DNA of 64,000 nt from Actinomycetes bacterium (GTDB lineage: Bacteria > Actinomycetota > Acidimicrobiia > Acidimicrobiales > Microtrichaceae), in assembly GCA_024222295.1 (NCBI GenBank), contig JAAEPF010000034.1:1-64000 (forward strand). Reading direction: 5' to 3'. This document shows, piece by piece, positions 45,306-46,608 of the stretch. Position 1 is the stretch's first letter. Every line of letters starts with the position of its first letter. The notes beneath the pieces are model-generated. The model searched no databases. It was not told the DNA's origin and saw only the letters and a program-made list of their open reading frames with translations. Position numbers and translations under genes: made by a program.

Positions 45306-45562
45306 TCAGTCGAGAGGTTTGATGTGGCCGATCTCGAACGCGCACTCGTGGAGGAGCTGACCGAGCTCGCTCGCTAGTTCCCGCAGCTGCTCTGCGAGGA
45401 CCTGAGTGGCGGCCGCGTGCGGGATGGTCCCGTCACTGTCGGTCATAGCGTTCGCACGGTCGACTGCACGGTCCGCGAAGTGCGGCACCACGTCCACGAG
45501 CACAGCGACGTTGCTGAGCGTCTCTGCGAGCTGGCGCGGACTGAGGTCTTCAGTCAGGCGGG
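45306..45562 (-). pseudogene. 3' half of a split small gene (C-terminal 84 codons, including the repeat)
   Basis: The frame reads RLTEDLSPRQ through the 33-bp repeat, then LAETLSNVAVLVDVVPHF and on to EIGHIKPLD, stopping at 45306. It has no good start of its own: a TGA sits just upstream of the repeat in this frame. The same repeat in the same frame ends the N-terminal piece at 46506-46608. Joined, they give 108 codons. The sequence is helical and amphipathic; function unknown. Internal GTG or ATG codons could still allow a shortened product. Confidence 0.6.
45530..45562. repeat. 33-bp direct repeat, copy 1
   Basis: Exactly identical to 46506-46538. It contains an internal inverted repeat GACTGA-GGTCT-TCAGTC. 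The bases just outside differ between copies (A/G on the left, G/C on the right), so the repeat is exactly 33 bp. Confidence 0.95.
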
Positions 45563-45658
45563 GTTGTCATCCAGCCGGAGGTCGCCACGAAACCACACCA
45601 CTCCGGTGCCGCCCGACCTGTCAGGGAACCTCTCCTCATGCTGCTGGCGCTCGGACAT
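45554..45658 (-). pseudogene. phr: DNA photolyase 5' stub
   Basis: An ATG at 45658 opens a 34-codon frame whose end GVVWFRGDLRLDDNPA matches the N-terminus of deoxyribodipyrimidine photolyases (consensus VWFRRDLRLxDNPAL). The match stops exactly where the 33-bp repeat begins: the final Pro-Ala codons lie within the repeat and the next codon is TGA. The remaining ~430 codons of a photolyase are absent from the window. Confidence 0.75.
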
Positions 45659-45769
45659 CAGCGAGTTAACACCACGGCTTGACGCAGCCGGGCTGGCGCG
45701 CTGGTCGTGCAGCGCCAAGCAGATGACTCCGACATCTAATCGCTCGGGGGCGGAGCTAGGTTGACCCTG

Positions 45770-46414
45770 GTGCCCACAGATGACGAGTCTCGGTCGGATC
45801 GGATCGCCACGCGTCGTAGCGACACGATGCTCGCCGTCGTGGCCGCCGTTGCGACGTTGGCGTTCGCTTGGACCGGTTTCCAGAGCGCGCAGTGGGTCAG
45901 GGAGAGATTCTCGCGCTCCGATGAGGCGGCGGCGCTCAGTGAGCAGGCGCTCGAACTGGCAGCCGAAGCCGACCGGATCCAGGAGCGCGACGAGATCCTC
46001 TACCTGGAATGGCGTCTTGCCCTCGCGGCGCAGGACGACGAGACGGCCGAGGTGATCTTCGGGCTCTTCCGGCCCCCCGTACAGGCCTACCTGGATGACG
46101 CCCCTGTGGACGAAGCGGGTCTTCCTGTCGCGCCAGATTTCGATGACCCCAACTACGTTGTGATGGTCGAACGCAACGAGGCCAAACAGCTGGATGAGGA
46201 GTCACAAGAGCAGCGCGCGCTCAGTCGAGCTGCCTCGGCCCGAGCAGCGAGGTTCGGCGGACTGGGTGTGGTGTTCGCTGCTGTTCTCGCGGCGGCCGGG
46301 ATTGCGGGCAGGTTCGATGACCTGCGCATGCGGCGAATCCTGACGGTCTCGGCGATGGTGATGTTGGCGATCGGGATAGTGCTCTTGATCGGCAGTCCGA
46401 TGAACTTTGGGTAG
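45770..46414 (+). CDS. Membrane protein with coiled coil, unknown
   Basis: 214 residues: a helix near the N-terminus (AVVAAVATLAFAWTGFQSAQW), a charged helical stretch rich in Ala/Glu likely to form a coiled coil (~residues 45-85 and 125-150), and two C-terminal helices (GLGVVFAAVLAAAGIAG; ILTVSAMVMLAIGIVLLIG). Similar uncharacterised proteins occur in bacteria, but I cannot name a family. TAGGTT 7 nt before GTG 45770 supports that start over TTG 45761. It is the only intact gene between the two 33-bp repeats. Confidence 0.78.
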   Translation: MPTDDESRSDRIATRRSDTMLAVVAAVATLAFAWTGFQSAQWVRERFSRSDEAAALSEQALELAAEADRIQERDEILYLEWRLALAAQDDETAEVIFGLFRPPVQAYLDDAPVDEAGLPVAPDFDDPNYVVMVERNEAKQLDEESQEQRALSRAASARAARFGGLGVVFAAVLAAAGIAGRFDDLRMRRILTVSAMVMLAIGIVLLIGSPMNFG

Positions 46415-46430
46415 TCGCACTCGCTGAGGT

Positions 46431-46508
46431 GCTCAGTCGTGGTTCACGAACTCCTCGCCGCTGACGTCCACCACCACGGCCTCGATCTCACCGCCGGCGG
46501 AACTGGCT
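46431..46508 (-). pseudogene. C-terminal gene fragment
   Basis: A coding-like frame ends SSAGGEIEAVVVDVSGEEF followed by a stop at 46431. It runs upstream into copy 2 of the repeat, where a TGA closes it, and has no start. It may be the tail of a gene cut by the rearrangement. Parent family not recognised. Confidence 0.4.
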
Positions 46509-46538
46509 GGCGCGGACTGAGGTCTTCAGTCAGGCGGG
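46506..46538. repeat. 33-bp direct repeat, copy 2
   Basis: Identical to 45530-45562; the distance between copies is 976 bp start to start. Confidence 0.95.
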
Positions 46539-46608
46539 CGTGGTAGCTCACGTTCCGCACTGCGTCGCCTGCCGCTCCCGTCATCGCTACTGCTTCTCCG
46601 GCGTCCAT
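46506..46608 (-). pseudogene. 5' part of the split small gene (N-terminal 34 codons)
   Basis: ATG 46608 opens MDAGEAVAMTGAAGDAVRNV, then SYHARLTEDLSPRQ ending in the repeat. After the repeat the frame continues into unrelated codons (PVPPAVRSRPWWW) and stops. Replacing that tail by the sequence after copy 1 restores a smooth 108-codon gene. A GAGGAC sequence just ahead of the ATG could act as ribosome site. Confidence 0.6.

Follow-up and report, generated by a model that had tools for sequence, protein, structure and literature searches.

How did 943 bp of DNA carrying a complete gene come to lie between two exact copies of a 33-bp sequence, apparently inside another gene? The initial annotation of the window, that is, the whole 64,000-nucleotide stretch analyzed here, had proposed that a small minus-strand gene was split by the insertion of a segment carrying a membrane-protein gene, the repeats being either attachment-like ends or duplicated target. 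The insertion itself is supported by our analysis, with a frame that is continuous across the repeat. The explanation that we favor, at a probability of about 0.62, is that a small orphan gene captured, in a single event of illegitimate, microhomology-assisted joining, ∼0.95 kb of DNA from a foreign chromosome. The features of the locus are as follows.

45306..45562, minus strand: 3′ part of the putative interrupted orphan gene (86-codon open frame; a stop is met just outside copy 1; 0.43 bits/codon)
45530..45562, no strand: direct repeat copy 1, the putative host target sequence (exactly identical to 46506-46538)
45563..46505, no strand: 943-bp insert, interpreted as part of another chromosome (flanked by the repeats; two putative truncated donor genes and one whole gene)
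45555..45718 (ORF 45554-45718), minus strand: predicted DNA photolyase stub, N-terminal (GVVWFRGDLRLDDNPA), truncated at copy 1 (PF00875 match and DNA identity)
45770..46414, plus strand: complete small membrane-protein gene, ∼214 amino acids, function unknown (the longest ORF starts at TTG 45761)
46433..46516, minus strand: predicted C-terminal stub of an arylsulfatase (SAPASSAGGEIEAVVVDVSGEEFVNHD, then stop), truncated at copy 2 or a few bases into it (similarity to the end of a sulfatase in genome G105)
46506..46538, no strand: direct repeat copy 2 (exactly identical to copy 1)
46506..46608, minus strand: 5′ part of the putative interrupted orphan gene (the repeat joins it in frame to the 3′ part; no other frame has a positive coding score)

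Direct repeats and the putative interrupted gene

Sequence comparison of the two 33-bp copies revealed no differences between them and unrelated flanks on both sides, confirming that exact repeats, spaced 976 bp apart, bracket the insert. Except for a tandem repeat at the window's first bases, this pair provides the sole repeated 25-mer of the window. In two sets of third-order Markov null sequences for 1.92 Mb of the same genome, repeats at distances of 300–20,000 bp never exceeded 20 bp, and the 33-bp identity is therefore far beyond chance. The initial annotation had recommended a search of the genome for other copies of the 33-mer; none was found elsewhere in the host. Allowing up to three mismatches, the 26-base core of the repeat occurred at only these two sites across 397 genomes of the order (the host and 396 others), and a 17-base core had no match among viral contigs. 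A one-mismatch match to the repeat core on host contig C62 was rejected as unrelated and sits in degenerate repeats beside an IS21-type element. This short contig (L007, 4442 bp), which may be contamination or a collapsed repeat, also encodes a tyrosine integrase; this gene and the IS21-type transposase/ATPase pair adjoin the degenerate short repeats.

The 33-mer does contain the inverted repeat GACTGA-GGTCT-TCAGTC, which had been likened to a recombinase core. Its occurrence is at chance level, an equally good inverted repeat being present in 3.5–5.5% of random 33-mers from the window, and the role of a recombinase core is not supported. No pair of inverted repeats was found at the insert ends, and, in agreement with the earlier description, the ORFs and profile matches between the repeat copies included no recombinase; nor did they include a transposase. 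An insertion sequence or transposon was rejected for lack of a transposase ORF and of terminal inverted repeats. We also rejected an integron gene cassette, as the insert begins with GTTGTCA, which does not fit the attC core GTTRRRY.

Joining the flanks through one repeat copy generates an open minus-strand frame of 108 codons (MDAGEAV...RLTEDLSPRQLAETL...KPLD, then stop). Scored with codon statistics taken from the window's long ORFs, this frame outscored the other five on each side of the repeat (+0.36 bits/codon on the N-terminal side and +0.43 on the C-terminal side), so that the proposed joined gene is indeed coding-like to the left and right of the junction. An intact copy of this gene or an empty site in relatives, which had been suggested as a check, was not found. 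The 108-codon gene is an orphan, without a detectable homologue in anything searched, and therefore no empty site could be found. A 28-bp match between the orphan gene and an α/β-hydrolase gene of another genome (G044) was judged to be due to chance. As neither an empty site nor an intact orphan gene was available, we infer the direction of insertion and the target duplication from the continuity of the frame, which suggests that the target was one intact gene with an empty site.

Ends of the insert and the gene between them

What our analysis adds to the initial annotation is the probable identity of the insert. Its GC content is 64.8%, compared with 68.0% for the window (7th percentile). A search of the whole region as DNA in 61 relatives returned only short gene matches, from which the two end stubs of the insert, photolyase and sulfatase, were recognized.

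At the left end, the minus-strand ORF matches PF00875 (E = 7e-4, profile positions 2–16). Over the 53 bp that are comparable (45555–45607), the stub shares 83% DNA identity with the host's intact photolyase gene on contig C32. The NPAW motif was found in all eight photolyases read (the host's and those of seven relatives), and the DNA at this motif reads GACAACCCCGCCTGG in two relatives versus GACAACCCCGCCTGA in the insert. Photolyase homology extends eight bases (45555–45562) into copy 1. These last eight matching bases, CCCGCCTG, are also the repeat's first eight bases on that strand, after which the insert departs from the TGG of NPAW; an uncut donor photolyase would continue ...CCCGCCTGG. 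Since the photolyase reading continues eight bases into the repeat, donor and host target most likely shared these eight bases, suggesting a microhomology join at this end.

At the right end, the stub comprises the last ∼25 codons of a gene whose predicted product is 45% identical over 29 amino acids to the end of the G105 sulfatase (PF00884), an 822-residue frame ending in ...FTGGTIREAIVDVSGEPFVDLEKEAIAMLARE. At the sulfatase end, too, the protein similarity may run into the repeat (S-A-P). The ∼25 residues, together with one syntenic genome, identify the stub as a probable arylsulfatase end. The host genome itself was considered as the source of this end and rejected, as none of the six full-length host arylsulfatases found matched the stub at the protein or DNA level.

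Between the two stubs lies the membrane-protein gene. Its product had no match above the cut-off in Pfam, NCBIfam, or PHROG, no match in phages, plasmids, or viral contigs, and no close relative in genome_contigs. Relatives with 21–32% identity were present in 20 of the 396 other genomes of the order. In G105, the homologue of the membrane-protein gene and the arylsulfatase gene are convergent neighbors ∼10 bp apart; the gap in the insert is 18 bp. The same locus (G105:C12; L080:6285-10616) has a formylglycine-generating-enzyme-like gene, the membrane-protein homologue, and the arylsulfatase gene side by side. This adjacency suggests a possible link between the membrane-protein family and sulfatase metabolism.

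Origin of the insert and competing explanations

Because both ends appear to be truncated ordinary genes and the membrane-protein and sulfatase genes are syntenic in G105, the most plausible reading of the insert is one uninterrupted, random piece of another chromosome whose ends fall within two ordinary genes. This piece is presumably foreign: the host genome contains no second copy of it, and the host's photolyase and arylsulfatases are located elsewhere, none of them fitting as a source. The donor locus would have had the order photolyase (reverse), membrane protein (forward), and arylsulfatase (reverse), with random breaks inside the outer two, and the 33-bp repeats would represent host target that was duplicated. 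That half of the earlier proposal is supported. Its other half, attachment-like ends, is not, given a core that occurs only twice in 397 genomes, an inverted repeat at chance level, and insert ends that lie in photolyase and arylsulfatase genes cut in midframe.

The duplication could have arisen by either of two routes. A staggered break with a 33-nt overhang might have been filled in on either side of the captured fragment during Ku/LigD end joining, or replication might have switched template into a foreign strand and returned 33 nt behind its point of departure. Illegitimate joining with short homology would account for the random ends and the microhomology as well as for the lack of mobility genes. 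The genes for Ku (PF02735) and the LigD primase-polymerase (LigD_Prim-Pol, PF21686) are adjacent on host contig C25; therefore, end joining should be available to the host. Counting against capture are the length of the duplication (33 nt, a large value for simple end joining), the failure to find an empty site or intact orphan gene, the shortness of the sulfatase stub, whose identification draws on one syntenic genome, and the division of the assembly into 115 contigs.

The capture of DNA fragments at repaired breaks is already known from Streptomyces, in which healed double-strand breaks contained inserted fragments of 30 bp to 18.8 kb (PMC5869714). As in that system, an unrelated chromosomal fragment occupies a single site and brings no mobility genes, and the present host has Ku and a LigD polymerase. 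The Streptomyces fragments were endogenous, however, whereas the fragment described here is absent elsewhere in the host and is accompanied by a 33-bp target duplication. In homology-facilitated illegitimate recombination, one end requires a longer stretch of homology, and host DNA is usually lost (PMC3240628). The process resembles our case in its foreign segments of ∼1 kb and in its illegitimate-join microhomology of 3–10 bp, but here only short overlaps were found at the joins, 33 bp of host DNA appear duplicated, and the frame is continuous. Genomic islands made by integrases likewise place a gene-bearing segment between direct repeats that are identical over some tens of bp; in contrast to these, our insert has no recombinase and no tRNA or conserved target gene, and its ends lie inside ordinary genes.

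An assembly or amplification chimaera, formed in a mixed-strain or amplified sample and with junctions absent from the cell's DNA, is an alternative that we consider unlikely, though not negligible. It is possible because the source genome is in 115 contigs, with an estimated contamination of 2%, and it would account for a foreign fragment of slightly lower GC content that is cut in midgene at both ends. The overlap of ∼8 bases at the photolyase end also resembles template-switch chimaeras, and 33, the length of the repeat, is also one k-mer size of a common assembler. A simple artefact of k-mer overlap, however, needs a long stretch of identity between donor and host at the join, where the photolyase overlap amounts to only 8 bases. 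In addition, the site lies within a 342-kb contig, and two independent false junctions would be required. We infer that the insertion is physically real.

Alternatively, a small nonautonomous cassette might have been integrated site-specifically by a recombinase supplied in trans that used the 33-mer as att core. This would fit the exact 33-bp flanks with a small inverted repeat inside them, and the same genome has another segment without a recombinase, at a tRNA-Lys gene, that lies between exact 49-bp repeats. We regard such an integration as improbable, given that the insert lacks a recombinase gene, the inverted repeat of the 33-mer is at chance level, the core recurs nowhere else in the 397 genomes, and the insert ends in housekeeping-type genes cut short, not in the termini of an element. 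We hold it to be very improbable that the 108 codons were never a single gene and that the repeats came to flank the segment otherwise, for example by a larger rearrangement followed by a deletion. In favor of this view, searches of the order's 396 other genomes, of genome_contigs, and of plasmids, phages, and viral contigs yielded no homologue of the joined protein. Against it, one and the same frame is open on either side of the repeat, with coding-like composition, and the frame of the 3′ part breaks down immediately beyond the repeat. Capture of a foreign fragment remains our preferred reading of the locus; the insert has the appearance of a single mishap during DNA repair and not of a mobile element.

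Exact repeats elsewhere in the genome and implications

Across 1.92 Mb, exact short-range repeats of at least 18 bp were mostly tandem arrays, tRNA pairs, terminator-like palindromes, and paralogous genes. A 25-bp exact repeat at G000:C34:71017-72363, for instance, derives from two adjacent paralogous acyltransferase-type membrane genes. Another, of 23 bp (G000:C32:25914-27034), has related flanks (GCGGGRCTTCCGCG...CACCGCGG) and perhaps belongs to a dispersed palindromic repeat family.

The survey yielded a second clean pair, 49 bp long and exact, at G000:C23:341780 and 343874 (to 343922; L175:1780-3922), its copies spaced 2094 bp apart. Copy 1 of this pair overlaps the 5′ end of a tRNA-Lys(ttt) gene. 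The 2045 bp between the copies (63.8% GC versus 67.5%) contain a methyltransferase gene and no recombinase, and the ordinary reading of this segment is a tRNA-associated integrative remnant. That the host repeatedly gains recombinase-free segments through an undescribed process that duplicates tens of target bases (33 bp here and 49 bp on C23) is a conjecture to which we give hardly any credence.

The locus offers a readable case in which a complete gene, apparently together with its upstream region, was gained without any mobile element, and it does so in a lineage whose genetics are little developed. If the 49-bp case on C23 differs in origin, the 33-bp insert would be a curiosity, as well as a warning against reading every exact direct repeat as an att site. 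If the two cases share an origin, they would point to a repeated route of DNA acquisition that leaves long target duplications.
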